NCBI GenBank assembly: GCA_964036045.1
Contig: OZ038395.1
Location: 11,389,298 to 11,453,297, forward strand
From: Eutreptiella sp. 'Long Island Sound 2002'
Taxonomy: Eukaryota; Euglenozoa; Euglenophyceae; Eutreptiales; Eutreptiaceae
Direction of reading: 5' to 3'
Length of the DNA stretch: 64,000 nt
Notes under the pieces: model-generated
Databases searched by the model: none
What the model was told of the DNA's origin: nothing
What the model saw: the letters and a program-made list of their open reading frames with translations, nothing else
Translations under genes and position numbers: made by a program
Part shown: one piece after another, positions 7,971 through 64,000 of the stretch
Layout of the letters: every line of letters begins with the position of its first letter
How positions within the stretch are numbered: the first letter of the stretch is position 1

Positions 7971-8585
7971 CAACCTCATCGATAGCGAAAGCTCCGATAA
8001 CCGCGTCGTCCTATTAGCCCGTAAAGAATGGGTGGGGGATGACCTCCACCCACACCACTACATGGCCCCACACCACTACGTAACCCCTGCCGACTCGGGG
8101 ATCCCCACCGCTACAGAGCGGGGGGCAAAATCAGAAGTGGCCCACTTGTGGGCAAAGTGGCTACGTCACCCCTGCCGTCTCGGGGATCCCCACCGCTTCA
8201 GAGCGGGGGGCAAAATCAGAAGTGGCCCACTTGTGAACAAAGTGGCTACGTAACCCTTGCCCTCTCGGGGATCCCCACCGCTGCAGAGCGGGGGGCAAAA
8301 TCAGAAGTGGCCCACTTGTGGGCAAAGTGGCTACGTAACCCTTGCCCTCTCGGGGATCCCCACCGCTGCAGAGCGGGGGGCAAAATCAGAAGTGGCCCAC
8401 TTGTGGGCAAGGTGGCTACGCCACCCTTGCCGTCTCGGGGATCCCCACCGCTTCAGAGCGGAGGGCAAAATCAGAAGTGGCCCACTTGTGGGCAAAGTGG
8501 CTACGTCACCCTTGCCGTCTCGGGGATCCCCACCGCTACAGAGCGGAGGGCAAAATCAGAAGTGGCCCACTTGTGGGCAAAGTGG

Positions 8586-9776
8586 CTACATCACCCCTGC
8601 CGTCTCGGGGATCCCCACCGCTGCAGAGCGGGGGGCAAAATCAGAAGTGGCCCACTTGTGGGCAAGGTGGCTACGTCACCCCTGCCGTCTCGGGGATCCC
8701 CTACGCTTCAGAGCGGAGGGCAAAATCAGAAGTGGCCCACTTGTGGGCAAAGTGGCTACGTCACCCCTGCCGTCTCGGGGATCCCCACCGCTTCAGAGCG
8801 GAGGGCAAAATCAGAAGTGGCCCACTTGTGGGCAAAGTGGCTACGTCACCCCTGCCGTCTCGGGGATCCCCACCGCTTCAGAGCGGGGGGCAAAATCAGA
8901 AGTGGCCCACTTGTGGGCAAAGTGGCTACGTCACCCCTGCCGTCTCGGCGATCCCCACCGCTTCAGAGCGGAGGGCAAAATCAGAAGTGGCCCACTTGTG
9001 GGCAAAGTGGCTACGTCACCCCTGCCGTCTCGGGGATCCCCACCGCTTCAGAGCGGAGGGCAAAATCAGAAGTGGCCCACTTGTGGGCAAGGTGGCTACG
9101 TCACCCTTGCCGTCTCGGGGATCCCCACCGCTACAGAGCGGAGGGCAAAATCAGAAGTGGCCCACTTGTGGGCAAAGTGGCTACATCACCCCTGCCGTCT
9201 CGGGGATCCCCACCGCTGCAGAGCGGGGGGCAAAATCAGAAGTGGCCCACTTGTGGGCAAGGTGGCTACGTCACCCCTGCCGTCTCGGGGATCCCCTACG
9301 CTTCAGAGCGGAGGGCAAAATCAGAAGTGGCCCACTTGTGGGCAAAGTGGCTACGTCACCCCTGCCGTCTCGGGGATCCCCACCGCTTCAGAGCGGAGGG
9401 CAAAATCAGAAGTGGCCCACTTGTGGGCAAAGTGGCTACGTCACCCCTGCCGTCTCGGGGATCCCCACCGCTTCAGATCGGGGGGCAAAATCAGAAGTGG
9501 CCCACTTGTGGGCAAAGTGGCTATGTCACCCCTGCCGTCTCGGGGATCCCCACCGCTACAGAGCGGGGGGCAAAATCAGAAGTGGCCCACTTGTGGGCAA
9601 AGTGGCTATGTCACCCTTGCCGACTCGGGGATCCCCACCGCTGCAGAGCGGGGGGGGAAATCAGAAGTGGCCCACTTGTGGGCAAAGTGGCTACGTCACC
9701 CCTGCCGTCTCGGGGATCCCCACCGCTGCAGAGCGGGGGGCAAAATCAGAAGTGGCCCACTTGTGGGCAAAGTGGC
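8586..9776. repeat. Seven-unit (595-bp) higher-order repeat
   Basis: Variant sites in the left half of the satellite repeat at 595 bp, which is 7 x 85. The CTACATCACC variant occurs at 8586 and 9181, and the CCCCTACGCTTC variant at 8701 and 9296. This indicates block duplication of seven units. The outer limits are approximate. Confidence 0.7.
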
Positions 9777-10379
9777 TACGTCACCCTTGCCGTCTCGGGG
9801 ATCCCCACCGCTACAGAGCGGGGGGCAAAATCAGAAGTGGCCCACTTGTGGGCAAAGTGGCTACATCACCCCTGCCGTCTCGGGGATCCCCACCGCTGCA
9901 GAGCGGGGGGCAAAATCAGAAGTGGCCCACTTGTGGGCAAGGTGGCTACGTCACCCCTGCCGTCTCGGGGATCCCCACCGCTACAGAGCGGAGGGCAAAA
10001 TCAGAAGTGGCCCACTTGTGGGCAAAGTGGCTACATCACCCCTGCCGTCTCGGGGATCCCCACCGCTTCCGAGCGGAGGACAAAATCAGAAGTGGCCCAC
10101 TTGTGGGCAAAGTGGCTACGTCACCCCTGCCGTCTCGGGGATCCCCACCGCTTCAGAGCGGAGGGCAAAATCAGAAGTGGCCCACTTGTGGGCAAAGTGG
10201 CTATGTCACCCCTGCCGTCTCGGGGATCCCCACCGCTACAGAGCGGGGGGCAAAATCAGAAGTGGCCCACTTGTGGGCAAAGTGGCTACGTCACCCTTGC
10301 CGTCTCGGGGATCCCCACCGCTGCAGAGCGGGGGGGGAAATCAGAAGTGGCCCACTTGTGGGCAAAGTGGCTACGTCAC

Positions 10380-12700
10380 CCCTGCCGTCTCGGGGATCCC
10401 CACCGCTACAGAGCGGAGGGCAAAATCAGAAGTGGCCCACTTGGGCAAAGTGGCTATGTCACCCCTGCCGTCTCGGGGATCCCCACCGCTTCAGAGCGGG
10501 GGGCAAAATCAGAAGTGGCCCACTTGTGGGCAAAGTGGCTACGTCATCCCTGCCGTCTCGGGGATCCCCACCGCTACAGAGCGGGGGGCAATATCAGAAG
10601 TGGCCCACTTGTGGGCAAAGTGGCTACGTCACCCTTGCCGTCTCGGGGATCCCCACCGCTGCAGAGCGGGGGGGGAAATCAGAAGTGGCCCACTTGTGGG
10701 CAAAGTGGCTACGTCACCCCTGCCGTCTCGGGGATCCCCACCGCTACAGAGCGGAGGGCAAAATCAGAAGTGGCCCACTTGGGCAAAGTGGCTATGTCAC
10801 CCCTGCCGTCTCGGGGATCCCCACCGCTTCAGAGCGGGGGGCAAAATCAGAAGTGGCCCACTTGTGGGCAAAGTGGCTACGTCATCCCTGCCGTCTCGGG
10901 GATCCCCACCGCTGCAGAGCGGGGGGCAAAATCAGAAGTGGCCCACTTGTGAGCAAAGTGGCTACGTAACCCTTGCCATCTCGGGGATCCCCACCGCTTC
11001 AGAGCGGGGGGCAAAATCAGAAGTGGCCCACTTGTGGGCAAAGTGGCTACGTCACCCCTGCCGTCTCGGGGATCCCCACCGCTTGAGAGGGGAGGGCAAA
11101 ATCAGAAGTGGCCCACTTGTGGGCAAAGTGGCTATGTCACCCCTGCCGTCTCGGGGATCCCCACCGCTACAGAGCGGAGGGCAAAATCAGAAGTGGCCCA
11201 CTTGGGCAAAGTGGCTATGTCACCCCTGCCGTCTCGGGGATCCCCACCGCTTCAGAGCGGGGGGCAAAATCAGAAGTGGCCCACTTGTGGGCAAAGTGGC
11301 TACGTCATCCCTGCCGTCTCGGGGATCCCCACCGCTACAGAGCGGGGGGCAATATCAGAAGTGGCCCACTTGTGGGCAAAGTGGCTACGTCACCCTTGCC
11401 GTCTCGGGGATCCCCACCGCTGCAGAGCGGGGGGGGAAATCAGAAGTGGCCCACTTGTGGGCAAAGTGGCTACGTCACCCCTGCCGTCTCGGGGATCCCC
11501 ACCGCTACAGAGCGGAGGGCAAAATCAGAAGTGGCCCACTTGGGCAAAGTGGCTATGTCACCCCTGCCGTCTCGGGGATCCCCACCGCTTCAGAGCGGGG
11601 GGCAAAATCAGAAGTGGCCCACTTGTGGGCAAAGTGGCTACGTCATCCCTGCCGTCTCGGGGATCCCCACCGCTGCAGAGCGGGGGGCAAAATCAGAAGT
11701 GGCCCACTTGTGAGCAAAGTGGCTACGTAACCCTTGCCATCTCGGGGATCCCCACCGCTTCAGAGCGGGGGGCAAAATCAGAAGTGGCCCACTTGTGGGC
11801 AAAGTGGCTACGTCACCCTTGCCGTCTCGGGGATCCCCACCGCTGCAGAGCGGGGGGGGAAATCAGAAGTGGCCCACTTGTGGGCAAAGTGGCTACGTCA
11901 CCCTTGCCGTCTCGGGGATCCCCACCGCTACAGAGCGGAGGGCAAAATCAGAAGTGGCCCACTTGGGCAAAGTGGCTATGTCACCCCTGCCGTCTCGGGG
12001 ATCCCCACCGCTTCAGAGCGGGGGGCAAAATCAGAAGTGGCCCACTTGTGGGCAAAGTGGCTACGTCATCCCTGCCGTCTCGGGGATCCCCACCGCTACA
12101 GAGCGGGGGGCAATATCAGAAGTGGCCCACTTGTGGGCAAAGTGGCTACGTCACCCTTGCCGTCTCGGGGATCCCCACCGCTGCAGAGCGGGGGGGGAAA
12201 TCAGAAGTGGCCCACTTGTGGGCAAAGTGGCTACGTCACCCCTGCCGTCTCGGGGATCCCCACCGCTACAGAGCGGAGGGCAAAATCAGAAGTGGCCCAC
12301 TTGGGCAAAGTGGCTATGTCACCCCTGCCGTCTCGGGGATCCCCACCGCTTCAGAGCGGGGGGCAAAATCAGAAGTGGCCCACTTGTGGGCAAAGTGGCT
12401 ACGTCATCCCTGCCGTCTCGGGGATCCCCACCGCTGCAGAGCGGGGGGCAAAATCAGAAGTGGCCCACTTGTGAGCAAAGTGGCTACGTAACCCTTGCCA
12501 TCTCGGGGATCCCCACCGCTTCAGAGCGGGGGGCAAAATCAGAAGTGGCCCACTTGTGGGCAAAGTGGCTACGTCACCCCTGCCGTCTCGGGGATCCCCA
12601 CCGCTTGAGAGGGGAGGGCAAAATCAGAAGTGGCCCACTTGTGGGCAAAGTGGCTATGTCACCCCTGCCGTCTCGGGGATCCCCACCGCTTCAGCGGGGG
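10380..12700. repeat. Nine-unit (761-bp) higher-order repeat, about three copies
   Basis: In the right half of the satellite, private variants recur every 761 bp. CAATATC is at 10589, 11350 and 12111, and the TGAGCAAAG variant recurs near 10950, 11711 and 12472. The rare CTTGAGAGGGGAGG unit recurs at twice that distance (11083 and 12603). The period is nine units including two 83-bp units (7 x 85 + 2 x 83 = 761), which are visible in each copy. Confidence 0.85.
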
Positions 12701-12716
12701 GCAAAATCAGAAGTGG

Positions 12717-15060: not shown

Positions 15061-18000
15061 CTAATCAGAAAAAAGGGGGGAGGGTTCGGGGGGGTAGGGC
15101 GGGGGAACGCTTGTCTACCTCGAGGGCTGGGTGACGTCCACGCGTTGCCCTTGCGGCCGCTGTGGGGGTCTCCCAGCGTTTTGGAGGGGGGGCACCCGGT
15201 GGATCCAGCCGGGCTTAGCGGCTGGCCTCCGTGGAGCACGACCGCACGCTTGGCTGGCTGGACGCTTCCCCGAAGGTGTTCCACGTGTCCGTATCATTGT
15301 CACTGTTGGAAGGGGTGCTCACACCCCCGTCAGACAGAAGTGTGAGGTTAAGAGCTGTGAGTAGGTGATGCCCTTCCGCAGAGGTTGCCCGAAGAGGTGA
15401 CTCGTGCAGGGGAAAATCCAGTCGTTTAACAACAGACGAGGTTGCTTCCAGTGAGGAGAGTTCGACTCTTTTGGGCGCCGCCGGGGTGCCCGTGTGGCAG
15501 AGCTGTAGCTGTGGCGTGCGGGGGTGTGGGTAGCGGGGGTGGAGCTGCCTGCCTTGATCGGCCAGGCGGTCCGCCTCATTATTGCCCTCGATGGTCACAT
15601 GCGAGGGGACCTTGATCCAGTGTACGGTGCGTGAATTGTTGTCAAGTTCCATTAGCAGTTGTTCCCACAAGGGGACATTGGAAACTGGTCCCGACGAGCC
15701 GACCCACCCCCGCAGTCGCCAGCGGCGGGCGGCCCCGGGTGCACCCAAAATGACGTATTGAGAATCCGTGCATAATGCAATGTCACCTGTGTGAAAGATT
15801 TTAAGTGCTCTAATGACCGCCAGTAGCTCGGCGGAATTGTTGGTTTGCCGGTAATCATCCGGGACATATGCAGCGATGCTGGTGTGGTGCTCACAGAAAA
15901 TGCCATACCCTGCTAGCCTGCCTGCCGGCCCCTCAACAGCGGAGGAACCGTCGGTATAGACTTGCGGGATGCCTTGGTCCTGTAGGTCCTGCAGGACTTC
16001 CTGCAGCTCCTCTGCTTTTTCAAGTTTGCGCATTTGTCGTGCCGTGGCGCGCGCCTTTGCTCTGGTGGGTGGGCGGGTAGGGGGGTTATTGGGGAATGAG
16101 GGGACCGGGTCCGGTTGTTCTGCCGTGGGTTGTGCAGTGGTGCACGAGCGGGACGATCGTCGCAGCTTGGTGAGGAACCAGGTGTGGATCGTACCCGGGA
16201 TGGGTAGGTAGCGTGGGCACGAGGACCAGAGGTTTAGGACATGATACCAGTGGTCACAGAATTTGTCCCACGTGACCCTGAAAAATGGCTGGTGTTTTTT
16301 GGTGCATCGTAGCGACCAGTTGGTGATAACGGCGGACCAGCCCACAAGGCCTGCTGGGGTGCTCAGGGAGGCCGCAGGGTCCTCTTGCAGAAGTTGGGAA
16401 ACGTTAAAAGGTTGGAAGCCCTCTGGCTTGAAGACCTGATTAATGAATGCAAAAGATTTTTGAACAAATTGGCAGTGATACAGTGTATGTGCGACGGTTT
16501 CTAGCTCCTGGTCAACAGGGCACCACACCTCTAGCGGTTTCCAGCTCTGCTGTCGTTGGCCTACTGGGAGCCTGGACCATAATGCCTTATGAATAAAATC
16601 CTTGTGCCGCGGTGGAAGGTTGCAACGCTGGAAGGCTTCCCAGACCGAGTCTGGCTGGCGTGGTTTCAGGGAGTATGGTTGTGAAAGAAGCTCCGCCACT
16701 GGTGCTCGTGTCCATGCATACCAAAAGGTAAGGTCCAGAGGGGGTTGGGGGGGCAGTGCAAAAGTGGGCAGGAGAGAGGCAGGGAGCAGTGGTTGATCCA
16801 CCTGGAGGCGGTGCCGATAGACGGGTTCCCAGGTGGGAGCAAGCATGGAAAAATAAGTGGGTTGTTCAAGCAATTGTCCAATTGTTAAAACTCCTTGGCG
16901 GATGAGGCGGGGCGAGAAGTAGGTGTGGCAGTGTTCATTCAAGAAAAAGGTCGAGTGCCACGCTGGGGCATCGCCGGGCAACTGGGCGGGGTGATCGAAG
17001 TGCACATCTTTTTTAACCAGTGAGAAAGCGCGTGCACACCACCCCAGGAAAGGCATAGTCTGTTTAACAACATTTGGTCCTAGCTGAAAGAAAGGCAGTG
17101 ATGTCGGGCTTAGGATAATACCCAGGTCGGTAGCAAATGGCTGGAATGACGTGTGTAAAATACTGGGAACGCTCAGTGGGTCTTTAACGTAAGCCACAAG
17201 TACTGATGCATGCTGCCAATACAGGAAGGTTTCCGGTGCGGCCAGATTGTATCCTCCCTTGTGCAGAGGGTGGGAGAGAATGTCCAACGTGATGGACCAG
17301 GAGTTGAGCTTTAATGCAACCTGGTAGACCGTGCGCAGTGCGCTCACCACAGGGTCCGAGGGGAAGACCACTCTCGCTTGATAAATCAGGAGAGGGAGAA
17401 TCCAGAGTTTCAGCAGGAGGACCCTTTCAGCTAGCGACAGGTCCCATGACTGCATTGCAAAGGCCCGACCTATGGCCTTTTGCAGCGCATGGGAGTATGC
17501 CACTTCTGGTGTGACATGGCCAAACTCAATCCCCAGGTATTTGTAGCTGTCTTGGAACTGCAGACCGGTCGAGAGTAGCTGGACTTTCAAGCTCTCTGTC
17601 CAGTGTCCCTTCGGGAGGATGGCTGACTTTTTGTGGTTAACCATCAGTCCTGAGTATTTAGAGAAGGCTTTGAGTGAGCCCCAGACTATTAAGAAAACAA
17701 AGACAGCTTGCGCTGGTTCCCCCGTTACGATGATGAGCAGATCATCCGCATAGAGCAGAATTTGTACCGTGTCAGAGACAGAGGTCAGCTTCTCAGCCAG
17801 TGGTGAAATCAGCATAGCGAATATAGAAGGAGAAAGGGGGCAGCCCTGCCGCACACCCGAGGCAGGGGAGAATCTGTGCTGGGGCATTACTCCTCCTCTG
17901 ACCAATAAACAAATTGGGGCAACAAAGAGATTCATGAGCAAATTAATTATCGGAAGCGGAATACACATGTCGACAAAAAAGGTCTTGGCAAAAACGTGAG

Positions 18001-19333
18001 AAACCGAGTCAAAGGCTTTGCTGAAATCCACTGGGCAGAAAATACCCTGTGGCGTTTCCGCAAACGTAGCAAAAGCCTGCCAGAGATTATCGAAGATATA
18101 GCGGCCTTTAATGAAACCTTTTTGTTGAATCGGGGTGATGGCTGCAATGAAATTCTGCAGCTGTAGCGCCACAATGTTCGCTACCCATTTGTTGCAAAAA
18201 TTTTGGAGCACCAGGGGTCTGAGGTCCTGCACCCCGGGCAGACCTGCCGTTTTTGGAATAGGATTCAGCATGGCCATGGACCAGGTTTCAGGCAGGGTAG
18301 GATTATCCAACAGTGATTGATAAATTTGGTGCATCAAAGGAACAAAGTGTCCCGAGAAACACTTATAAATAGCTCCTGTAAAACCGTCAATGCCCGGAGA
18401 GGAGGTCGCACTTAGGGCTTCAAGCGCCGCGTGCACTAGGTCAGCTGACGCTGGGCGAATGAGTAACTTGGCCATGTCAGCCAGGGGTTTACCCTTAAAG
18501 AAAGAGCGTAAGTACTCCGTAACCTGAGGGGAGGAGAGCCCTGAGACGGACATTTTGTCAGACCAGAAACCCAGCAGCTCTTGTGCTATCAACTCGGGGT
18601 CGGGGAGAACCTGGCCCGTTTTGCTGCGGAGCGTGTGCAGTTGCCGTTTCACCTGCAGTTGGCGGGTGAGGCGCCAAATTTCTTGCTTCCGCCGCCAGGG
18701 TTGTGAGGCCCATGGGTCGGATCTCGTGGTCTTCAACTTGTCTAGCACCAACTGGCCTGTCCGGTCCTCGTCAGCCTTTTCAGCCAGGGTGGCAAGGACG
18801 CGATAGGCCACATGAGGGTCGGGAACATCATATCCTTTAGACAAAAGAAAATCGTGGCCTCCGGGGGCTAACTTATGTGATGTGGATTCCCTCAATAGTA
18901 TTTGTACTTCGGTATAGCCCGTGCAGCAATGAGTCCTCTCATATGCGAGGGCTTGTCGGCGGATCAGATCCTGGGAGTCCGCCCATTGGGCGAAACCTGT
19001 AGTTTGCAAACTGGAGAGTCGTGCCTGTATGTCGTCTACAGTCTCTTGGGACTGCAGAAAGGAGACAGGACACCTTTTGCGACGCTGCTGGTCGCAGGAG
19101 GCAGATAAGAGCGAAAAAACTACAGCCTTGTGGTCAGAGGAAGCCAAAAAACATGGATAGCATTCACGTAAAACAGAGACAAAGTTGTGCGGTACCAGGA
19201 CGCGGTCAATCCGGCGTCTTCTGTCTGTGCTGATGTCCGTCATGTCCGCTTCGTGCTGACTGACGTCCGGTGGTGGGGCGTCCTTGGGGCATAAAGATGG
19301 GAAACCCCATGTCCACCCTTCCAGGGAGACTTG
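15061..19333 (-). mobile_element. 5'-truncated LINE
   Basis: This is the element carrying the ORF2 above. Its 5' end is taken at the stop near 19334, next to a tandem CACCCTTGT repeat. The 3' end is not defined by a visible poly-A tail. A T-rich/G-run block at about 15065-15100 could mark it on the minus strand. No clear target-site duplication was found. Confidence 0.6.
15215..19333 (-). CDS. Non-LTR retrotransposon ORF2: endonuclease end, reverse transcriptase, RNase H
   Basis: An uninterrupted frame of about 1370 codons encodes an APE-type endonuclease remnant, then a reverse transcriptase, then a C-terminal RNase H. The first part reads WTWGFPSLCPKD, then RRRRIDRVLVP and the terminal endonuclease motif SSDHKAVVF. 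The polymerase has PVDFSKAFDSVSH, SGVRQGCPLSPSIFAML and the YADD active site at 17741-17752. A Cys/His knuckle (CPVDQELETVAHTLYHC) follows near 16500. RNase H carries VYTDGSS, NSAELLAV, CTDSQYV and GNNEADRLAD, so all four catalytic acids are present. Domain order fits the RNase H-bearing I-type group of LINEs. Going 5', the frame meets a TGA at 19334-19336 and the first two-thirds of the endonuclease are missing, so the copy is 5'-truncated. The absence of stops across 4.1 kb suggests recent insertion. Confidence 0.92.
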   Translation of the reverse strand, partial: QVSLEGWTWGFPSLCPKDAPPPDVSQHEADMTDISTDRRRRIDRVLVPHNFVSVLRECYPCFLASSDHKAVVFSLLSASCDQQRRKRCPVSFLQSQETVDDIQARLSSLQTTGFAQWADSQDLIRRQALAYERTHCCTGYTEVQILLRESTSHKLAPGGHDFLLSKGYDVPDPHVAYRVLATLAEKADEDRTGQLVLDKLKTTRSDPWASQPWRRKQEIWRLTRQLQVKRQLHTLRSKTGQVLPDPELIAQELLGFWSDKMSVSGLSSPQVTEYLRSFFKGKPLADMAKLLIRPASADLVHAALEALSATSSPGIDGFTGAIYKCFSGHFVPLMHQIYQSLLDNPTLPETWSMAMLNPIPKTAGLPGVQDLRPLVLQNFCNKWVANIVALQLQNFIAAITPIQQKGFIKGRYIFDNLWQAFATFAETPQGIFCPVDFSKAFDSVSHVFAKTFFVDMCIPLPIINLLMNLFVAPICLLVRGGVMPQHRFSPASGVRQGCPLSPSIFAMLISPLAEKLTSVSDTVQILLYADDLLIIVTGEPAQAVFVFLIVWGSLKAFSKYSGLMVNHKKSAILPKGHWTESLKVQLLSTGLQFQDSYKYLGIEFGHVTPEVAYSHALQKAIGRAFAMQSWDLSLAERVLLLKLWILPLLIYQARVVFPSDPVVSALRTVYQVALKLNSWSITLDILSHPLHKGGYNLAAPETFLYWQHASVLVAYVKDPLSVPSILHTSFQPFATDLGIILSPTSLPFFQLGPNVVKQTMPFLGWCARAFSLVKKDVHFDHPAQLPGDAPAWHSTFFLNEHCHTYFSPRLIRQGVLTIGQLLEQPTYFSMLAPTWEPVYRHRLQVDQPLLPASLLPTFALPPQPPLDLTFWYAWTRAPVAELLSQPYSLKPRQPDSVWEAFQRCNLPPRHKDFIHKALWSRLPVGQRQQSWKPLEVWCPVDQELETVAHTLYHCQFVQKSFAFINQVFKPEGFQPFNVSQLLQEDPAASLSTPAGLVGWSAVITNWSLRCTKKHQPFFRVTWDKFCDHWYHVLNLWSSCPRYLPIPGTIHTWFLTKLRRSSRSCTTAQPTAEQPDPVPSFPNNPPTRPPTRAKARATARQMRKLEKAEELQEVLQDLQDQGIPQVYTDGSSAVEGPAGRLAGYGIFCEHHTSIAAYVPDDYRQTNNSAELLAVIRALKIFHTGDIALCTDSQYVILGAPGAARRWRLRGWVGSSGPVSNVPLWEQLLMELDNNSRTVHWIKVPSHVTIEGNNEADRLADQGRQLHPRYPHPRTPQLQLCHTGTPAAPKRVELSSLEATSSVVKRLDFPLHESPLRATSAEGHHLLTALNLTLLSDGGVSTPSNSDNDTDTWNTFGEASSQPSVRSCSTEASR

Positions 19334-23557: not shown

Positions 23558-26500
23558 TCACGCCCCTCCGTCGTTAAGGGACCCCAGCACGGCGCCGGTG
23601 CACAGCGCCAGCTCCGGAAGCGCCTCGACAACGTGCCTGGCGCTGCCTGGGGCCCCCACGGGCCGGCGCCTCACCGCCGGGGAGCGCGTCCCATGGGACC
23701 GGGTGCTCGTGGCCGTTGCGGACGAAGCGGCACAGCCGCCGCAGGCCGGCGCCGTACTGACTGTACACGCTCAGCGCCGCCAGAAGCGGCGCGTGGACCC
23801 GCGCCCTCCACTCGTCGGCCAGCGCCGCATACGCGGCCCCCAGCCCCGCGGACTCCGCCGCGTCCCGCAGCTCCGCCTCCGGGCGGTCGCGCGCCCTCAC
23901 CGCGCGGGCGGCGGCCACGACGTCTGCCGCCGTCCAGAACAGCGGGTGGCGAAGGCGAAGAAGAGCCTCAACAGAGGGCCGCTCCTCCGGCCGCATGCGC
24001 AGACGCATTGCGATCAGGTGCCGCGCCTCGAGGCGCTCCCGCGGGGACAGCGGCCCGGCGTCAACCGCCGACAGATTGAGCGCCCCCGCGCGGATGCGCT
24101 GGTTCTCTTGGAACAGGGCGTCCGGAGGGCCAGTGCCCGGACCGGTCTCCTGCAGCGGCATAGAAGCCAAGAGGGTGTACAGCCTGGCTGGGCCAACACT
24201 TTTTGTCGTGTCTCCAAAGGTGCCTCGATTGGTGGCTGCTCCGTCGGATTTCTGTGCGTGATGCCTGCGGCCGTTGTACCGTCCACGGCGCACGCCATCT
24301 ACGTGCTCCACGTACCGTCCAGTCCTTGTGCCTGACTGCTGTCGTTCCCGCTCTTTCCGCCTCGCTGCGCCTGTCCGTCTCAGTAAGACCCATTGCTGAC
24401 CCACAAAAAACGTGGGTGCCTCTTCTCGTACACCACGGCAAAATGTGACGCGAAAGGGGGCGCGAACTTCCGACACGAAAATTTCGCCATTCCAAATTAT
24501 CCAGGTTCCAGTCCGGTCCCGCCCGCCCGAAAAAAATTCTGGGCTATGGCACGTGTGCACAGGCGGCAACCCCCCCCCCCCTGTGTGACATTCCATTGGG
24601 TTGTTGTTGTTTCTTTACGGGGCCCTGGACAGTCACCCGTTCTTCCCTTCGCATTTTGCGTTGCGTCGCTGTGTTCTGTCGGCCGCTGTGTTCTGTCGGC
24701 CGCTGCGGCCGGTGCTCCTGCTGGTGTCGTTTCCGCGTTCACGGAGCCCAGTGGTTGGTGTGCCGGGGCTGTGCTGGATGTGGCATGGTTTGCGTTTGCG
24801 CGTCAGCGGCGCCCAGTAGTTGGCGTATTGGGGTTCCCTGCCCTCCAGGTATTCGTGGCGGAGATTTGCACTCAACCACACTGAGGACAGCTTCGGCTCG
24901 CCACCCAACGTGATGCACGCATGCAGGTCATCAGAATTCCGATCGAAGTCTTCCCTATGCATGGCCCTATCGTAATGTGACCCGCAAAACCATGCCCCCA
25001 AACGGGAGCGGGGCTAAGAGGACCTTCACTGCCTACAGCACAGAGGCACTCGGTGAAAGACATACCGTGCGAATCCTAATTATTTGCGGAATCCTAAGTT
25101 TTGCGTTGGGTGTTTTGAATTTTATTTAAGCAAAATTTTGCGGCAACACTTAAAACAGGGCAAAAAATATTTCTTTTTTGCGATTTTTTTCTGCGGTACC
25201 CGTTTTTGCGGAGCGTATTGAGACAAAAGTTTTTTTTATTTTTGCGTTTTTTTTTGCGGAACCCATTTTTGCGAAGGGCCTGGGTACCTTGGACTCTGGG
25301 ATTGCAGTCCAATCCTACGCAGGCATACAAATGTGGATCAGTTGAACTCTGGGATTGCAGTCCATAGACGATGGACCCCAGCTGCACAGAACTAGCCCCA
25401 TTATCTGCTTTGGGGCACAGCAATAATACATAATACATTCTCTGACAGCAGAGCAAGGAGCATAATGGGGTCTGAGAAACAGAAGGGTGGGGGGGTGGGG
25501 CAACAAGCAGTGGGGCAAACACAGCATCCGTCCGACAATTGTGGTATTTCTGCAAAGGGGGGCAGGGGCAAAAAAAATAATTTTTTGCGATTTTTTTTTG
25601 CGGAACCCATTTTTGCGAAGGGCACAAAGCCAAAAATTAATATTTTTTTTGCGTTTATTTTGCGGAAAACAACACCTTGGACCGGGAATTAATTATTTCC
25701 GCAAATAGTTAGGATTCGCACGGTATGCAGAGCATGACATGAAACACACAGACACCAAACAGTAAAAGGGCACACAAAGCAAAAGAAAAGAAGAATCAAC
25801 ACACCCAAACCATGCAAACAGAGAGACATGCAGTGTGTGATGACACCATTGCAAGGTGCAAGAACACAATACATGCAACAATACACAGGCAGAGTCCAGA
25901 ACATGAACACATCACCAACATAGATCAAATCCGTGGATGAGAGCCAAACACAGACTCTTCTCAGAAACACATACACCACAGGAGAACAAAGTCAAATGGG
26001 GCGCAGGCATGGCAGGGCCATGCAGGAGGAGCCAGCGGGTGTCAGCGAGCAGACCTGCGAGGGCGCGAAAGGGCTCGGCTGTTGCGTGACCAATTGGTAC
26101 GCCAGCACCCCCAGTGCCCAGACATCGACTTTGTTCGTCAGCTTCGGGGCGCCGCGGAGCATCTCCGGGGCGCGCCGGGCCATGTTGATCTCCAGGCCGA
26201 ACGTGGTCAGGGAGAAGGAGTTACTGGCGCCGCCCGCCGTGGCGACCGCGAGCTGGAGGTCATGCAGCAGCAGCGCCCCGTCCTCCGCGATCAGCACGTT
26301 GGTGGCATTCAGGTCGTTGTGGCTCACGCTGTGGGCGTGCACGCCCCGCAGCGCCTCCGCGACCTCGCGCAGCACGCTGACCGGGCCCCCCGGCGTCCGC
26401 AGCCGCGCCTCGATCTCCGCCAGCTCCGGCGGGGCGGGCGCACCGTCCAGTGCGAGGGCCAGCGCGAGGGAGCCCCGGCAGCGCTCAAACCACAAGTAGA

Positions 26501-28781
26501 TCCAGTCGTCGTCCGCGTGCAGGTCGAAGTACCGCGCGACGCGCGCGCGCTTCCCCTGAAGCGCAAAGACGTGGTCCACCTCCCGCTTCACCAGGCTGAG
26601 CTGGTCCTGGCCCCGCTCCCCCGGATCGCGGCGCAGGCGCTTGACTGCGGCCGGGACCGGAGGTGCGCGCCCCTTGGGCACAAACTCCCCCGTGTACACG
26701 ACCGTCCCCGCGGATCCCTCGCCGAGCACCGTCCCCTTGTCCCACGCCATCTGGGCTCCCGCGGGTTGCCAGGTGCCGACCTCCCGTGGCTGCCACGGCA
26801 ACGCGTTGCCGGGCGGTGCGGCCGCGGGCGGCAGCACCGGCACGGCCCCGATGGCCGTGACGTCCAGACCCACCGCGCGCGCGCGGTCCAGCGCCGGCAG
26901 CAGCAGCGACAAGTCCGGCGACGCGCGCGCCCTCTGCACCTCCAGCACCGCGGCCCAATGCTGAGCCATCGCGGCCGCGGCTGCGAGCGGGCCGTCCAGC
27001 ATGTTCCCAACGTCGGCGCCGGCGCCACGCGCTGCCGCCAGAGCATCCTCGAGGGCCTGCAGCTGCGACTCGGCGACGCTGCCGAACGCCTGCGGGGGCA
27101 CCGCGTCCAGCGCGGCCTCCAACGCGTTCGTGAGCCGTCGGGTCTCGGTGATGTTGTCCCGCGCCTGCACCGCCCGCGCTGCCAATGGGCAATCGATTGG
27201 GACCCCGGCGGCACGTGCGCGTTGCAGTGAGGCCTCGAGCTGAGACGCGACGTCGGAGTCGGCACCCCCCGCCCCCCGGGCCTCGAGAGTGGCGGCCAGA
27301 GCAAGGGCCGCGTCCAGCCGCTCTAACGCCCCGCCCACGGCTGCAGGGGGTGTCTCCTGCTCCTCATCGTCCAGACAAAGTGGGTCCAGGGCGAGCGCGC
27401 GCACAGCGCGCGCCTCCGGCACGGCGCGCGCGTCCTTCTCGAGGGCCGTGGCCAAAGCGTGCAACTGCGTCGCAGCTTCGGCCTCCAGGCCCTTCCGCTG
27501 AGCACGGGCGGCGCTCCGCTCCGCTTCCAGCGCCAACGCTGCCTCTGCGGCGCGTGCCGCGGCGCGGGCGCGCACCAGCGCAGTATCGAGCAGAGCCTGG
27601 GCCTTGGCCCTTGCACGGGGGTCGAGATGCTCGCCCAGACCGACGAGACTGAAAGAGAGGCACTCGGCGGCGCCGCGCACTGCGGCCGCCAATTCGGCGT
27701 CCAAGCGCGCCGCATCCAACAGACCGCCATCCGGGGACAAGAGGACGATGTAGAACACAATGCTCCGTTGCGTCTGAGCGGGAGCGGGAGGCGATGATGC
27801 GGTATACCAGCGTGCCACAGGGTCAGTGGGATGGACAAACTTCTGGGGAACGCCTGCTTTAGGGGTCAGCAGCAGAGCTGCCAGCTGCCGTGCAGCAAGG
27901 GCATAGCCTCCTGCAACGACAGTTGTCGCGTATCCGCATTCTGCACCCAAAGCCAAGTCCGTCACCAGATGGGAAGTCTCCGCAGGCAATTTCTCCAACA
28001 AATCTCGACTCAGACGTTCTCCGGTGGCTTCTGCGAGTGCATCTACCCCCCCCCCTTGTATAAGCTACACCAATGTACGGAATTATTACGGTCCCTACGC
28101 CTACTGTAGCTTGGACAAGGGCGTAGCTTATACAAGGGGGAGGGGGGTACCCATATCTGCATCATTCCAGGGCTCGGCAAGCCGTACGAGCCGTACGTGT
28201 TTACCCGACTGAACGCCTCCAGCACGCGCAAGTCCTCTGCCATGGCATCCGGCACAATCATGCATAAGCCACTCTGCACTAGTGATGCCGTTTTCATTTT
28301 GCCCAGGCACACTTTCCAGCGAACACAGATATCGCAAATACGGCCTGAGCCCAGACACGTCTCTTACCGGCCCCCCAGCTCCTTGGTACAGGCAACGGCG
28401 CCCTCCCCGATGTGCGGGAGCGGCCAAAGCCCTTGGTTTGACTTTTGCTCGGGGGTTTGCGTGAGGAAGCGAAGCCCAGTGTTTTGTTTATCACAGCCGT
28501 TGTGCATGGAAGCCCTTTGACCGTTGTCAACGAAAAATCTTGCTCACCATTCAACTCCAGGTCTCGCCAGGGAGACGCATTGGCATCAAACTGCGGAGGA
28601 GGCTCCTGATCCAAAACAAACGCCTGCATTTCAGAATGGCCATGGAGCTCCATAAACGACAATGCCTGTCGAAAATCGCCTTCCAACTGGTCTTTCCAGG
28701 ACACCCCCGCCTTCATATAGTCGGGGAAGCCCCCCAAATCAGGGTATGGGATGGCCTTGGGCTGCTGCGGTTGTTTAGGAT
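23558..28781 (-). CDS. IRE1-like protein kinase with KEN ribonuclease domain
   Basis: Exons on the minus strand: 28781-28548, 28344-28150, 28045-26055 and 24149-23676, perhaps with a last piece 23646-23558. Junctions match in phase (donor GTGAGC with acceptor CTCAG; donor GTCTGC with acceptor CTGCAG). After a non-conserved region and a long Ala/Glu/Arg helical stretch comes a kinase: GEGSAGTVV loop (about 26701-26725), PAAVKRL lysine, HNDLNATNVLI catalytic loop, HDLQLA in place of DFG, and RRAPEML. The last exon gives PSVEALLRLRHPLFW and a KEN RNase domain with SVYSQYGAGLRRLCRFVRNG then HEH. The Tyr, Arg-Asn and the His four residues after Asn fit IRE1 catalytic positions. IRE1 splices a stress mRNA from the ER; here no luminal beta-propeller or membrane segment is seen, so a cytosolic RNase-L-like role is possible. 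The final 28-nt intron is doubtful; reading through it stops at 23574. The 5' end is not established. Confidence 0.75.
24577..24838 (+). repeat. Dispersed repeat family E, copy 1
   Basis: Starts CCCTGTGTGACATTCCATTG and contains TGTTCTGTCGGCCGCTG (tandemly doubled here) and GCTGGTGTCGTTTCCGCGTT. Further copies are at 38167-38405 and 42309-42500. It lies in the large intron of the IRE1-like gene. Confidence 0.65.
25061..25727. mobile_element. 667-bp element with 31-bp terminal inverted repeats
   Basis: The left end CATACCGTGCGAATCCTAAT (25061 onward, extending to 25091) is the reverse complement of 25697-25727 with one mismatch in 31. The inside is AT-rich with repeated TTTTTTTGCGGAACCCATTT-like blocks and a doubled CTCTGGGATTGCAGTCC. 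No transposase frame is present, so it is a non-autonomous DNA element. It sits in the 1905-nt intron separating the kinase lobe from the KEN exon. No clean target duplication was found. Confidence 0.85.
28046..28147. mobile_element. 102-bp MITE interrupting an IRE1-like exon
   Basis: It is bounded by TA at 28044-28045 and 28148-28149. Ends are inverted: C-run then CTTGTATAAGCTAC on the left, GTAGCTTATACAAGG then G-run on the right. The middle reads TACGGTCCCTACGCCTACTG. A second, larger member is at 55058-55426, also between TA dinucleotides. TA duplication and short inverted ends fit a Tc1/mariner- or Stowaway-like MITE. Removing the element plus one TA joins codons ATA TGG GTA GAT GCA and restores a continuous frame. 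Left in place, the frame ends at a TAG inside the right TA. Confidence 0.9.
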
Positions 28782-30174
28782 CTGCGGCGTCAGCGCTTCG
28801 CAACGCAGAGGCACTCCCATGCCCAGAGAGCGGGTGGTGCCGCAGACCCCAGGGAGTTCGGTGACCGTGCGTGCGGGACGTGGGACGTTGAGGCTGAGGC
28901 TACGAATGCCCGTGTCCGGAGGTGCAGATGGTGTGGCGGGGGCTGCACAGCATGCACAGGGTTTGGGGCGAGTGGTAGCAGCGCTGCCGGGCTGCGGCCC
29001 GTGGCTGACCCCCAGCACACCAAAGCGCCCAGGAGCCCACTTGCGAAGGCCGCCCAGGCGTTCATCCGCTGAGCCTCGTGGCGCAGTGAGCCCTCCACCA
29101 GCAGCATGCAGATGAGGACTGGAGGGAAGAGGTCAAGGGGGGCACGTGGCGTGCTGCCTGTGCACAAATGGGGGGGTGTTTGCGCCGTGTGCACCTTTTG
29201 AGTTGGTCATCCCTGGAAGTGCCGGTTGCTGCCGTCATTTTCGGTGCCTGAACCGTTGTTCTTGGAAGGGGGGTTGTCTCCCTTGCCCAGGCTTCCCGGG
29301 CAGAATCACCCCCTGCATACCGATGACCAGCAGTGGCCCAGATGCATCTTCCCAGAGGTAGCGACGGGAATGCTGAAGCAAACCGCTGGAGTTATTTTCA
29401 GTGCCATACCCTCAGGGCGGAGTGCATGCTCAATACGTCAAATTCTGTTACACTCGGGTTGCACTTTGTTGCATTCCTATTCTGCTTGAGTTACACCGTG
29501 TTGCAGCTGTGTTGCGTTTTGATACACCCCTGTAATGCTTTATTGCTCATTGCTTGGGTCCTTTTGGGTTACACAACAGCATAATGCCTAGAGGACACAT
29601 CCATTGTCTTAGAACATGTGCATTTTTTTGTCGGAAAGTTTTTGCGCCAAAATTTGCAGCAATTTTGAAGCAAACTTCTGTATTAACAAAGGCGTACCAT
29701 GCAGGCCTTGGCGGCAGAGGGAAGCGAAATTCAACTTCGGGAATGACTGCCTACGCTCAAAGGACTGCTAGAAATGGCAGTGCCAGTATAAACATGCATC
29801 AGCAGGAATTCCATTTTATTGCTCAGAATTTGGATACCACAGGGGTGAAGTGGCGGGCAGAACTGCGGCAGTCTCCTAGCCCTCCCCCTGAGCGCGTGCG
29901 GCGCTCCGCAGGGCGCCAGAGTGGAGCAGCGCCTGGGCTCTGGCCCAAACACCGCAGTGGAGACTGATGCCCAAAGCGCCCAGAAGCTTGAGTCCCTCTG
30001 AAATGCCTTTATTGTGAAGAACCACGCACACCCACCCCCCACACACACCCTGAAGAGCTCATAGGGGGAGAGGGCGCTTGATGTGGAGCGTGCGCCGCGC
30101 AACTGCAAGGGCAACTCGGGACAGCCAATGGAAAGAGCATAGCGGAACGCGTAACACAAAACAATGGTGGCAAA
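28782..30174. other. Spacer or intron, no recognised gene
   Basis: No domain was recognised on either strand. If the exon at 35539-36054 belongs to the IRE1-like gene, this stretch would be intronic. A short AT-rich block with TTTTTGCG motifs lies near 29625-29680. Confidence 0.35.
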
Positions 30175-53795: not shown

Positions 53796-54326
53796 TCACA
53801 ACGCCATCGCAGAGCCATCCGCCGGAAGAGGCAGCCCACCGCCGGGCGCACCAGGAAACGCACCGGGGGCGGCTGCGGGCTGCGCCGGGGGCCCTCCGGG
53901 GGGCTGCACCGCCGGCGCCGGTGCGGCGGCCGGGGCCGTGGGCTGCGGCACTTGCATCCGCACCAGCTCCTCCTCGTGGTGCTTCCAGTGCAGGATCTGT
54001 TGGCCCCGCAGCCAATTCACGAACTCGGGCTTCTGCAGTTCCCCTCGGAAGCGGGGGTCCTGCAGCTGGTCCAAGAAGTACAGGCACTGCGGGTACATCA
54101 GCAGCCGGGCGTACTCCGGCCGCTTCCAGTACTTCAGGTACTCGAGGTAGTGCACAAAGGCCGGCTGCTTGAAGTAGTCGCGCTCGGCCAAGTGGCGCAG
54201 GTACTCGACGTTCGCGAGCATCTGCACGAACTCGCACTCCTGAATGAAGCGCACGCGGTCGTCCACCTCCGCCAGGGCGTCATCGTCGGGGGAGGCCGGC
54301 GCCGGGCGGTCGATCAGCTCATCCAT
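53796..54326 (-). CDS. MED31: Mediator complex subunit 31
   Basis: This encodes a 176-residue MED31 (Soh1), a subunit of the middle module of the Mediator co-activator that links transcription factors to RNA polymerase II in the nucleus. From the ATG at 54326 it reads MDELIDRPAPA, then the family core: RVRFIQECEFVQMLANVEYL, LAERDYFKQPAFVHYLEYLK, YWKRPEYARLLMYPQCLYFL, then DPRFRGELQKPEFVNWL and QQILHWKHHEEEL. This covers the whole single helical domain of about 95 residues. A Pro/Ala/Gly-rich tail of about 45 residues follows and ends at TGA. The start is chosen because the core begins about 25 residues later and the in-frame sequence upstream becomes low-complexity repeat. No intron interrupts the core. 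Upstream (54400-54645) is a tandem pair of repeat family F, which may form the 5' region or promoter. Confidence 0.93.
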   Translation of the reverse strand: MDELIDRPAPASPDDDALAEVDDRVRFIQECEFVQMLANVEYLRHLAERDYFKQPAFVHYLEYLKYWKRPEYARLLMYPQCLYFLDQLQDPRFRGELQKPEFVNWLRGQQILHWKHHEEELVRMQVPQPTAPAAAPAPAVQPPGGPPAQPAAAPGAFPGAPGGGLPLPADGSAMAL

Positions 54327-54399
54327 GCGGCTGCGTCGCAGTGGCCATGCAATTGCAGTCTGCGGGGCATGGGAAGAGGACTCGCGGGTTGGCGCCCCA

Positions 54400-54645
54400 A
54401 CACACACACGCTGGGAACCGCAAACACGAGGGCGAAAGCACGAGAAGAGCGGGTGGAGAAAACCCCTCAGGAGCTGCAGGGCGGCCCTAGACATCTGTCG
54501 GTCTGTTGAAGTTGAACACACACACACACACACACAGAGACACACGATGGGAACTGCAAACAAGAACAGAGCAAGAAAAGCGTCGAAAGAAAACTCCTGC
54601 GGAGCTGCAGGGCAGCCCTGGACGTCTTTCGGTCGGTTGGGGACA
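54400..54645. repeat. Tandem pair of repeat family F upstream of MED31
   Basis: Two units of about 130 bp share GGGAACTGCAAACAAGAACA-type sequence, AAAACTCCTGCGGAGCTGCA and CAGGGCAGCCCTGGACGTC, separated by a CA microsatellite (54519-54538). A single relative lies at 22030-22140. Confidence 0.55.
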
Positions 54646-54890
54646 GCGCAATGTGCGGCACTGATCAGTGCAGATGCAATGCAATACTGAGTATCCCGAT
54701 TCCTCACACACACAAACACATACATGCGCACGCGCAGTGCACAACGACCAGCAATGTTTCAGCGCTTGAGTGGGTGGTCCTTGGACAGTGTTTCCAGGCC
54801 AAAAAGCGCCGTTGACGAGCGGTGGTCAGTGACAAGACCATGTACACGAGAGTGCAGCCCAAAACAAAATTGTCCAGCGCACTGCACCGG

Positions 54891-55001: not shown

Positions 55002-55057
55002 CATGCAGCATTGGGTTGCAGTTGCAAGTAGAATGTTGGTATGAGCAGGAGGAACTA

Positions 55058-55426
55058 CCCCCCCCCCCCCTTGTATAAGCTACGCAAAAGTCCCAAATGA
55101 ATACGGTCCCTACGCCTACTGTAGCTTGGACAAGGCCGTAGAGCCCGAGGTTCAAAAAGAGAAGGTTGCATGGTGAGCTGGTCCAAGATAGGGGAATACA
55201 ATGCATCAATATCCCCAAAAGCAGAGCTATGTGGGTTCAAGTGGGCAAACACTCACAACAAATGTGTCCATGACCCTATTGAGCTGGCAAATTTGTCACC
55301 AAACCCACATCTTATGTGGCTGCACTACATTTGGTACCGAATCAAATTAGGTACCAAATTAATACGGTCCCTACACCTGCTGTAGCTTGGACAAGGGCGT
55401 AGCTTATACAAGGGGGGGGGGGGGGG
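55058..55426. mobile_element. 369-bp MITE related to the element in the IRE1-like exon
   Basis: Flanked by TA at 55056-55057 and 55427-55428. The ends are C-run plus CTTGTATAAGCTACGC and GCGTAGCTTATACAAGG plus G-run. The internal block TACGGTCCCTACGCCTACTG, TAGCTTGGACAAGG is present twice (about 55099-55137 and 55364-55402). About 225 bp of unrelated sequence lies between, so it looks like a 102-bp-type element carrying an insert. Confidence 0.85.
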
Positions 55427-55428
55427 TA

Positions 55429-56197: not shown

Positions 56198-56501
56198 GGG
56201 GGCGTTTTCGCACAGCGCGCGCACAGCGCCAATTATTACAGTGATTATCCAGGTAACAACCCTGAAAACCACCCACCTGCGGAATCATGCACAATCAATT
56301 CTAAACTCAAAAATTCAAACATCTGATGCTTGCCATGGGTCCCAGGGACCTAAATTCTGCCCCCTATAGCCTCGTCCGCTGCAGCAGCCATTCAATGACG
56401 TCCTTTCAATCTTCTGAACTTACCAAACTCCCGGTGGTGGAGAGCAGCCAACTTTTCGCACAGCGCGTGCACAGCTCGTGCACAGCGCACGGTACGCCCA
56501 C
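56198..56501 (+). mobile_element. MITE family A, copy 2
   Basis: 304 bp from GGGGGCG to CGCCCAC, flanked by TTT at 56195-56197 and 56502-56504. It is co-linear with copy 1 at 1362. Confidence 0.8.
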
Positions 56502-58327: not shown

Positions 58328-58620
58328 GGGGGCATTTTCGCACAGCGCGCGCACAGCGCCAATTATTACGGTGATTATCCAGGTAACAACCCTGAAAACC
58401 ACCCACCTGCGGAATCATGCACAATCAATTCAAAACTCAACAACTCAAACATCTGATGCTTGCCATGGGTCCCAGGGACCTAAATTCTGCCCCCTATAGC
58501 CCCGTCTACTGCAGCAGCCATTCAATGACGTCCTTTCAATCTTCTGAACTTACCGAACTCCCGGTTGTGGAGAGCAGCCAACTTTTCGCACAGCGCGTGC
58601 ACAGCGCACGGTACGCCCCC
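58328..58620 (+). mobile_element. MITE family A, copy 3
   Basis: 293 bp from GGGGGCA to CGCCCCC, flanked by TTG at 58325-58327 and 58621-58623. It is co-linear with the other copies. Confidence 0.8.
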
Positions 58621-59604: not shown

Positions 59605-60447
59605 GCTGACACCCGTGACAGTGGCCAACCGTGGGACGGACGCGGATCAACTTGGCTGAAACGTGTCCGTGTCACGGTATTCATCGGGGCTGCTTCCCAG
59701 CGGGTTCGGTCCATGGGCCAGCGGTATTGGCACGTATTGGAGGTGTCGGTCGCGTGAGTGGCGTCCGGACTGTCGTTTTGGCAACGGCGCACTGGGGACC
59801 TCCCATTCGCTGGGGCCCCGCGCTTCCCGTGGCCGTTTGTCCCCATGCATGCGCCGCACTGCACACACCGTCTGCAGTGCTGGCGTATGGGGGCGCAGGG
59901 GGGAAATGGGCCTAGTCTTCGCACAGCGCGTGCACAGTGCACGGTGCGCCCCCTCTGGTTTGTGCCGTACACGTTGCCTTGTGGTAAACAGCCTGGCAGC
60001 AGGCGCACAGAGATTGGTCGGGGGCTGAAACGCGTCGTTGACAGGGCACGAAAATGGCATCGTCCCACATTTTTCAACCCTTGGACAGGCGACCGAACGT
60101 CATGGCCGTTGCGGGACCCGGAAAACTCCGCCTCGACCCCAGCACAGCCTCGCCTTGACAATCGACCTCGGCTCACAGCATGTCCGGAATCCAGGTCGGT
60201 CGCCTTCTTGACAGCGTCCGTATGCCTGCACAACGCCCAGCCGATGTGATGCCTGGGATGGCGAGGCGCCAGTTCGTCCGCTGCCCCATGCCGCTCTCCA
60301 TCACTGATCGCAACGGTTGCGTCTGCACAACCCGCAGCTGATGTTCCAAACGGACGGCGTCGAATGGCTTCGCAACGGCTGTGCCCACTCCACTCCACTG
60401 GAATAACACTGTTTGGCCTTTCTAGGCTGCACCGGAGCAGCGACATT
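59605..60447. other. Spacer with a lone MITE A right end
   Basis: Bases 59920-59953 (CTTCGCACAGCGCGTGCACA, then GGTGCGCCCCC) match only the right end of family A. No gene is supported. Long minus-strand frames here begin inside MITE A copy 4 and were rejected. Confidence 0.45.
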
Positions 60448-60762
60448 GGGGGCGTTTTCGCGCAGCGCGGGCACAGCGCGCGCACAGCGCCAATTATTAC
60501 GGTGATTATCCAGGTAACAACCCTGAAAACCACCAACCTGCGGAATCATGCACAATCAATTCAAAACTCAAAAATTCAAACATCTGATGCTTGCCATGGG
60601 TCCCAGGGACCTAAATTCTGCCCCCTATAGCCCCGTCCGCTGCAGCAGCCATTCAATGACGTCCTTTCAATCTTCTGAACTTACCGAACTCCCGGTGGTG
60701 GAGAGCAGCCAACTTTTCGCACAGCGCGCGCACAGCGTGTGCACAGCGCACGGTACGCCCCC
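60448..60762 (+). mobile_element. MITE family A, copy 4
   Basis: 315 bp from GGGGGCG to CGCCCCC. It is co-linear with the other copies but has extra GCACAGCGC units. Flanks are ATT and GGT, so no target duplication is visible. Confidence 0.75.
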
Positions 60763-62596: not shown

Positions 62597-63041
62597 TCAG
62601 GCGGGCATCAGCGGCCCACGGCGCATGCACTGGAAGGTCGGCGGCGTCGGCAACGGCAGCCCCATCATCTCGTACAGGAACGAGACGCGCACGGCGGCCT
62701 CCTGCGGGCTGAACATCCCGTAGTGCCCGCCGGCGGCCGCGGCGCGCACAACCACCAAATGGTTTCCGCGAGCGCGCCGGGCCCGGCTCGCGTACTTGAG
62801 GGCGTGCCGGTAGGGGCTCAGCGGGTCGTCGCAGCACATGGACAGGTAGGCGTGGGGCCAAGCCCGCACGGCATCCGCGTTCTCGTACGGGCAGTAGCCC
62901 AGGATCGCATCCCAGTCCGCGGGGCTGCCGAGGGGGTCCCCCCATTCGTCGCGCTCGTGCTGCGTCAGCGGCAGCGCCGGGTCGAGCATGATGCTGGACA
63001 CGTCCAAGAAAGGGGCGTCCAGGATCATGCAGCGGAAGAGC
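62597..63041 (-). CDS. Oligopeptidase-B-like S9 peptidase, last exon
   Basis: One 148-codon exon follows acceptor CTGTGCAG and encodes the C-terminal end of a prolyl-oligopeptidase-family serine peptidase, closest by eye to oligopeptidase B, which cuts small peptides after basic residues. It reads LFRCMILDAPFLDVSSIMLD, then LTQHERDEWGDPL, ILGYCPYENADAVRAWPHAY, LSMCCDDPLSPYRHALKYAS and AAAGGHYGMFSPQEAAVRVS, ending at TAG or similar after MRRGPLMPA. The Asp after LSMCC and the His in GGHYG match the catalytic Asp and His of the family. The Ser elbow (GxSxGG) must lie in an upstream exon, beyond the sequence I could assign and probably right of the window. A disputed point is only the exact subfamily. 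Confidence 0.8.
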
Positions 63042-64000
63042 CTGCACAGATTTGCAGTCGATGATACGGACACGCAGGGACACTGCCGGCTTCGAAGGCC
63101 TTGATTTGCCAGGGGGAACATCCTCCGCATCCAAGCACACCCCTCCTTGCAGCTCCACACCTACCCACCGGGGCCCCATCCCAACCCCTCAAGCATGGGG
63201 GGGCGCCCAGGTGCAGCCCTTGACCCCGACACCCCCTAAACATTTTGGCCCCTTGAAGAGGGGGGGGGGGGGGGCTGGCACCAAAAACACCAACCGCTAC
63301 CCCCTGCCGGGGCTGAGCCTCGTTGGCCCGATGTTCCATGAGTAACAAAGCACATTTGTCCCCATTGGTCCCGGTGGCGGGGGGAACGATCGATGTGGCC
63401 ACAAAATCAGAAGTGGCTGCACAAATCCTGCCCTCTTTGGGGCCCAGGGACAATGCCCAGAAAAAACTGAGCATTTTGAGTACAAACACATGGGGTCACC
63501 GGTTCTCCCGCCCTTTTAAATGGGGCACCAAAATTTTTCGGCGCCTGCCGCGCCGGCCAATGTCTCCATTTTGGCTTCTACGATGGTCAAGGCCTCTCAA
63601 ACATTTTGGCCCCCCAGAAGGGGGGGGGGGAGGTCAGGGCCTGCACTTGGGCGGACCCCGTGCCCTCAAGCTTCATCTCTACTCCCGCAGCGCCAATCCC
63701 CCCCCCCTTGCAGCCCCACCCCTACCCCCTGCAGCCCCCCCCTACCCCTCCATATGTACCCCCGCAGCTCTGTCCCTGACACTGCGGCCACCGGCGAGCG
63801 GTTGACCACCAACTGCCATCAGCTGACGCCGGCCGCTGTTGGTGAAGCGCCACCCTGTTCACCGCAGTCCTGCACGTTGGCATGCCGGCTGCGGGACGGC
63901 CGACGAATCATGGCGGCGCCTATCGGCCTCTCACCACCGAACGGTCTTTCCCGTCCTGACCTCCCTTGCCCCCCCCTTCCCTTCTCGTGGGAGGTTGTGC
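63042..64000. other. Probable intron and spacer of the peptidase gene
   Basis: No further peptidase exon was recognised. Contents: G-runs at 63258-63275 and 63619-63632, a weak satellite-unit relative (AAAATCAGAAGTGGCTGCAC) near 63402, and GGCGGCGCCTATCGGCCTCTC near 63913. Confidence 0.4.

Follow-up and report, generated by a model that had tools for sequence, protein, structure and literature searches.

A TA-flanked MITE in a probable exon of an IRE1-like gene: ordinary insertion or intron?

Does a short transposon that lies in the reading frame of a protein-coding gene simply interrupt or mark an allele, or is it removed from the transcript as an intron? The question is raised by a 102-bp element in an IRE1-like gene of the window (the whole stretch of 64,000 nucleotides that was analysed), which an earlier note had presented as a MITE inserted in a coding exon and as a possible intron in the making. 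The element and its borders are as follows.

28149-28044, minus strand: TA to TA unit, 106 nt including both TAs, with 102 nt between them
28046-28147, minus strand: MITE body of 102 bp, whose terminal inverted repeats are imperfect and tipped with C/G runs
28148-28149, minus strand: 5' TA of the presumed target-site duplication (the relative at 55056-55428 is likewise bordered by TA)
28044-28045, minus strand: 3' TA of the presumed target-site duplication, which supplies the opening TA of the stop codon 28045-28043
28046-28055, minus strand: right-tip run of ten G, the length of which fixes the frame of the join with the downstream exon if the element is retained

Read on the minus strand, the element runs from a C-rich tip through TTGTATAAGCTAC to the inverse of TTGTATAAGCTAC and the ten-G run, and a repeat search delimited terminal inverted repeats with 31-nt arms that are 87% complementary. 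The RNA fold of 28044-28151 reaches -59.9 kcal/mol (z = -6.06), a stability equalled by none of 200 shuffled sequences. The 13-base core word TTGTATAAGCTAC, allowing up to two mismatches, occurs seven times in the window against an expectation of 0.31, three times in the 102-bp element and four times in the relative at 55056-55428. The description of a 102-bp, TA-flanked MITE holds in its coordinates, arithmetic, inverted ends and TA borders, and by these structural tests the element is a genuine insertion of an ordinary kind.

55056-55428, minus strand: 373-nt relative, arranged as terminal inverted repeat, core, unique middle, core and terminal inverted repeat, with TA on each side

Copies of this family were found twice in the window, with 102 and 369 bp between their TAs; both are bordered by TA (2/2), and no others were returned when the window was scanned with a regular expression for run-tipped elements that are flanked by TA and whose inner ends match. 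The longer copy has its two cores in direct orientation, 261 nt from each other and with 90% identity across 52 nt, and joining it at the cores gives a sequence of 112 nt that aligns to the 106-nt small element with gaps confined to the C/G runs. The differences that remain are run lengths, which are not equal at the tips of the two elements, and scattered substitutions. Since the small element matches the core-collapsed relative in this way, it is most simply read as a deletion derivative of such a longer element: it looks like a non-autonomous MITE that would have lost the stretch between two direct core repeats, an event we infer from the sequence match to this one relative. The relative has an 86-codon frame (55125-55382, plus strand) with a codon score at chance level, and no cut-and-paste transposase domain was recognised among the selected window ORFs given to Pfam. 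It lies outside any gene recognised in the window, as a plain MITE would predict, and about 300 nt past the 5' end of a Med31 frame (53799-54758, minus strand; Mediator subunit, Pfam 1e-34). Exact searches with the terminal-repeat or core patterns gave no hits in viral contigs or in genome contigs, and the 102-bp element had no match among phages, all in collections that may omit the window's own genome; Rfam at gathering scores gave no match.

The window is otherwise rich in repeats. A second family of 292-314 nt has full copies at 1363-1666, 58329-58620 and 60449-60762, besides which a left end occurs at 56199 and an unpaired right end at 59953; its ends are GGGGGCGTTTTCGCACAGCGC-like and CACGGTRCGCCCCC, with 11-nt GCACAGCGCGN units close to them, and the 12-mer AATTATTACGGT is common to the MITE and the three full copies. 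A minisatellite at 8076-12716 (85-bp unit, about 55 copies, 94% matches) carries several open frames, one of which gives a marginal and probably spurious match to Pfam CaM-KIIN (3.4e-6, 27.6 bits against a cut-off of 27). The frame 15218-19333 (minus strand, 1372 aa) matches reverse transcriptase and RNase H, with zf-RVT under the cut-off, and is probably a non-LTR retrotransposon to judge from these domains. A frame at 62600-63160 (minus strand) matches the prolyl oligopeptidase family (Peptidase_S9, 8.6e-10).

The gene that holds the MITE is composed of the following parts downstream of the insertion.

25995-28046, minus strand: 3' flanking exon, an open frame with an alanine-rich region and a protein kinase domain (Pkinase, 1.1e-19)
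24150-26054, minus strand: proposed GT-AG intron between the kinase and KEN-like exons, 1905 nt, phase 0 (worked out by hand)
about 23661-24149, minus strand: KEN-like (IRE1 RNase) exon, by matches to solved structures

Downstream of the element an open frame of 690 codons (25995-28064, minus strand) is intact, and positions 3-197 of the 263 in the Pkinase profile are covered before the proposed 1905-nt intron. Against solved structures the kinase frame matched 861 sequences, the best 60 of which include IRE1 at 1.3e-9, not in top place, whereas all 13 sequences matched by the KEN-like exon are IRE1 (best E 5.6e-7); the Pfam model Ribonuc_2-5A stays under its cut-off there (0.17), so that the KEN assignment is one of pairwise matches. 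The intron proposed to link the two exons, on grounds of domain order, has the borders CAG/GTCTGC and CTGCAG/GAG; ranked against the region's GT and AG sites respectively, its donor stands at the 93rd percentile and its acceptor at the 98th. A kinase domain followed by a KEN-like domain thus supports the earlier identification of the gene as IRE1-like. An AlphaFold model of the KEN ORF alone was of no use (mean pLDDT 38), and a search for literature on IRE1 in haptophyte algae found nothing useful. By eye, the protein carries HND...N and HDLQ (26055-26400, minus strand), the usual kinase motifs at those sites being HRD...K and DFG, and the KEN active-site stretch appears altered, as RNGHEH (23661-24149, minus strand). 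Upstream of the gene, the frame 29206-28793 (minus strand) looks by eye like a signal peptide and then an AFVA motif, and may be a first exon with complex-plastid-type targeting.

Whether the MITE interrupts coding sequence depends on its flanks. On the 5' side these are:

28151-28315, minus strand: 5' flanking coding stretch by codon usage, in the frame used downstream of the element
28316-28791, minus strand: further-upstream coding stretch in another frame, with its best codon segment at 28471-28791

Flanks were scored with a codon model whose coding set includes the gene's own kinase exon and whose null consists of overlapping windows, with two of the three null regions also feeding the background, and its ranks are a guide rather than probabilities. 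In the expected frame, the 50-codon stretch that ends at 28151 scores -9.2, negative in absolute terms, compared with -36.1 and -41.9 in the other frames, and none of 751 overlapping null windows exceeds -10.8. The 30 codons nearest the element score 6.2, where the highest of 1404 null windows reaches 3.6. Past the element, the opening 30 codons score -8.4 in the expected frame and -10.9 and -34.4 in the others, with the 95th percentile of the null at -9.0. An earlier model, trained on the kinase ORF alone, gave higher scores for both flanks and is not the one relied on.

Protein homology was available from P0002 (ENA, 1051 aa), the sole homologue found, which is 50% identical to the kinase ORF over 28% of that ORF. 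Upstream of the insertion P0002 aligns to 28470-28315 in the other frame (40%, E 2e-4 in a one-subject search), and its alignment resumes downstream from 27926. For the part of P0002 between these alignments, the best local match is the 5' flank in its expected frame (score 27, reached by 93 of 2000 shuffles), compared with 23 for another frame of that flank (556 of 2000). The 33-34 residues just 3' of the element have no counterpart in P0002, their best local score being 18, a value reached by 1405 of 2000 shuffles. Homologue searches were each limited to a capped set of just under 8000 candidates: the window protein retrieved itself and P0002 only, P0002 as query retrieved itself alone, and the N-terminal region, with E up to 10, retrieved the window's own protein and not P0002. 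With P0001, 28 pattern matches were returned from genome contigs and none was confirmed, in a collection that may omit the window's own genome.

Taken from codon usage and homology, we consider with good confidence that the 5' flank is exonic, and the 3' flank is probably exonic too, so the MITE probably sits in an exon. The claim that the frame is coherent on both sides is sustained by codon usage at the 5' border; it is weaker on the 3' side, and about 150 nt upstream of the element the frame shifts. There, at roughly 28317-28290 (minus strand) and near an A run, homology and codon usage both move to a different frame of the IRE1-like gene; a small intron, a genuine frameshift or a miscalled base in the A run could each be the cause. 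This change went unremarked when the start of the gene was placed at 28344. Two irregularities this close together, within some 150 nt, raise the likelihood that the 5' part is damaged or was mis-sequenced, and the upstream frame change fits decay or sequence error better than it fits a carefully spliced gene.

What happens to the frame at the element itself can be read directly. Exact removal of 104 nt, the element plus one TA, leaves ATATGGGTAGATGCA and an open frame, as had been stated. If the element is instead retained as assembled, the upstream frame stays open throughout it and meets a stop at 28045-28043, at its right edge. The prediction that retention produces a stop is correct to that extent; what it overlooked is that the stop hinges on the length of the terminal G run, which sets the frame of the join. 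A retained element translated in frame, adding about 35 residues, with the assembled G-run length due to sequencing error or slippage, is a reading we regard as quite unlikely. The tip run lengths do differ between the two window copies, and the Blepharisma study (PMC9942856) describes poly-C runs of variable length in a transposon there, possibly as assembly errors. Yet the element can also be read without a stop in a second frame (27862-28161), so that some 35 open codons are nothing unusual, and the protein would have to tolerate a 35-residue insert.

Splicing was assessed with splice-site scores based on a generic consensus. A GT-AG intron using the TA borders (28150/28043) would take out 108 nt in the wrong phase, and is rejected, in agreement with the earlier note that such splicing breaks the frame. 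The border donor scores -4.0 (63rd percentile of 334 GT sites), and the border acceptor, preceded by a purine run, scores -11.7 (2nd percentile of 319 AG sites). A search for in-frame pairs, limited to introns of at least 30 nt and to acceptors no more than about 70 nt past the element, returned 50 GT/GC-AG pairs, all weak, 32 of them GT-AG. The best pair, 28104-28031, scores just -1.4 bits on that consensus; with it, about 15 codons of the element would stay in the message and a few downstream ones would be lost. Another, 28150-28065, would join the 5' border donor to an internal TAG acceptor, removing 86 nt and adding six codons. The 32 GT-AG pairs compare with a mean of 13.6 in 300 base-shuffled elements, all 300 of which had at least one such pair; that in-frame pairs exist does not show that any is used. 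The statement that unusual splice sites would be needed is accurate for exact removal and missed these pairs, and the choice it left between exact splicing and a knock-out was too narrow, given the 50 pairs and the homopolymer-dependent stop.

The idea that the element is spliced out as an introner-like intron, either exactly in a hairpin-assisted, non-canonical way or through GT-AG sites inside it or at a border, can be weighed against these results, and we judge it unlikely. The open frame after exact removal, the in-frame pairs in excess of the shuffled mean and a strong hairpin that brings the ends together speak in its favour, and published work offers precedents, in Amoebophrya, whose introners have inverted repeats, form hairpins and use non-canonical sites (PMC7789003), and in introners that co-opt sites or add codons (PMC9860276). 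The low score of the best in-frame pair and the poor border acceptor tell against it; moreover, introner families are defined by many similar introns, and here the only further copy found in the window falls outside every recognised gene. More generally, it is unlikely that a family of C/G-run-tipped, TA-target MITEs of this protist is spliced from its transcripts through ends paired in a hairpin or through GT-AG sites inside the element, with insertions into exons persisting as new introns; such a family would be an introner type with a 2-bp target duplication and unusable border splice sites. An intron reading of the MITE is thus possible but unsupported, and the label of an intron in the making finds no support in border sites that are poor and out of phase.

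A larger intron reaching beyond the borders, in which the element lies or of which it is now part, would leave the coding sequence uninterrupted. It would account for the residues after the element that lack a P0002 counterpart, and the best in-frame pair spans the element interior into the 3' flank. Spliced alignments to P0002 left 5048 models past a no-stop filter (4990 two-intron, 33 one-intron and 25 intron-plus-exact-removal), and no model combining exact removal with a downstream intron passed it. The best two-intron model, with an intron across the element and weak sites, scored 157 (best of 4990), ahead of intron plus exact removal at 146 (best of 25), frameshift plus exact removal at 134 and one intron at 130 (best of 33); the top scores are a few points apart, and P0002 is distant and possibly an unspliced prediction. 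On the other side, the 5' flank is strongly coding right up to the border, CAG/TAG acceptors soon after the element are out of phase with the 5' border donor (checked by hand), and, among the best 25 of the 50 pairs, the two in-phase acceptors past the element end in GAG. The 3' codon score, at about the 95th percentile of the null, leaves room for such an intron. P0002 is the only homologue to bear on it, at the limited coverage given above, and we hold this reading to be rather unlikely.

The reading we prefer, at somewhat better than even confidence, is that of a genuine MITE, probably exonic and probably just disrupting or marking an allele. A non-autonomous cut-and-paste element, of Tc1/mariner type by its TA duplication and C/G-run-tipped ends, would have inserted into the IRE1-like exon, with its transposase presumably supplied from another locus. 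As assembled, the allele would have its upstream frame cut short at the right-border stop, and this copy most likely yields a shortened N-terminal product or represents an allele that is disabled or heterozygous. The downstream frame would still be intact because the insertion is recent or because the 3' part is expressed, and splicing need not be invoked. Three observations run against an ordinary insertion: the intact 690-codon downstream frame with its recognisable kinase domain, unexpected for an old knock-out; the number of in-frame GT-AG pairs relative to shuffled elements; and the top-scoring P0002 models, out of thousands tried, that put introns across the element. The first and last of these leave the larger-intron and introner readings some probability.

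Among known systems, a TA target duplication is the hallmark of Stowaway elements, in the nonconventional introns of euglenids the ends are joined by a hairpin, and Huff et al. 2016 belongs to the literature on such known kinds. Like Stowaway-type and Tc1/mariner-derived MITEs, the present element is short, has a TA duplication, terminal inverted repeats and a strong hairpin, and has the look of a deletion derivative; unlike them it has long C/G-run tips, and its superfamily is assigned by structure, with no transposase recognised among the ORFs scanned. Stowaways are described as Tc1/mariner-related MITEs in PMC8227079. PMC9942856 describes Blepharisma MITEs with C-run-tipped ends and TA-containing duplications that are removed as DNA; Bogo/BogoMITE and BstTc1 of that organism share with our element C-run-tipped inverted repeats, TA-containing duplications, variable runs and intragenic positions, and differ in having TAA/TTA or TATA target-site duplications and in being removed from the somatic genome.

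An analogous elimination at the DNA level, as of a TA-bound ciliate internal eliminated sequence cut out precisely to leave one TA, would suit an intragenic, TA-bound element whose exact removal keeps one TA, and C-run-tipped MITEs with TA-containing duplications are such eliminated sequences in Blepharisma (PMC9942856). A G+C content of 57%, the proposed 1.9-kb intron and abundant repeat DNA would be unlike a ciliate, and the second copy falls outside the genes recognised; we regard this explanation as extremely improbable.

For introners, Gozashti et al. (PMC9860276) report that one or both splice sites may be taken from the insertion site and that some introners add or delete codons, in hosts such as Florenciella, Aureococcus, Symbiodinium and Micromonas. 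The present element resembles these introners as a non-autonomous DNA element in an exon-like setting where site co-option is possible, but its border sites are poor, the canonical border pair breaks the frame, and it is known from DNA alone. With Amoebophrya introners (PMC7789003) it shares inverted repeats that join the exon ends, short direct repeats at the borders and, if removal is exact, non-GT-AG ends; there, however, splicing is backed by RNA-seq and the direct repeats are 3-5 nt.

As it stands, the locus documents one MITE family and one intragenic insertion, and it is a reminder that a frame left undamaged on either side of an insertion, suggestive of an intron as it may be, is not evidence for one. 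Should the element turn out to be spliced, it would represent the fresh birth of an intron from a DNA transposon, with the longer form of the family nearby as its likely precursor design.
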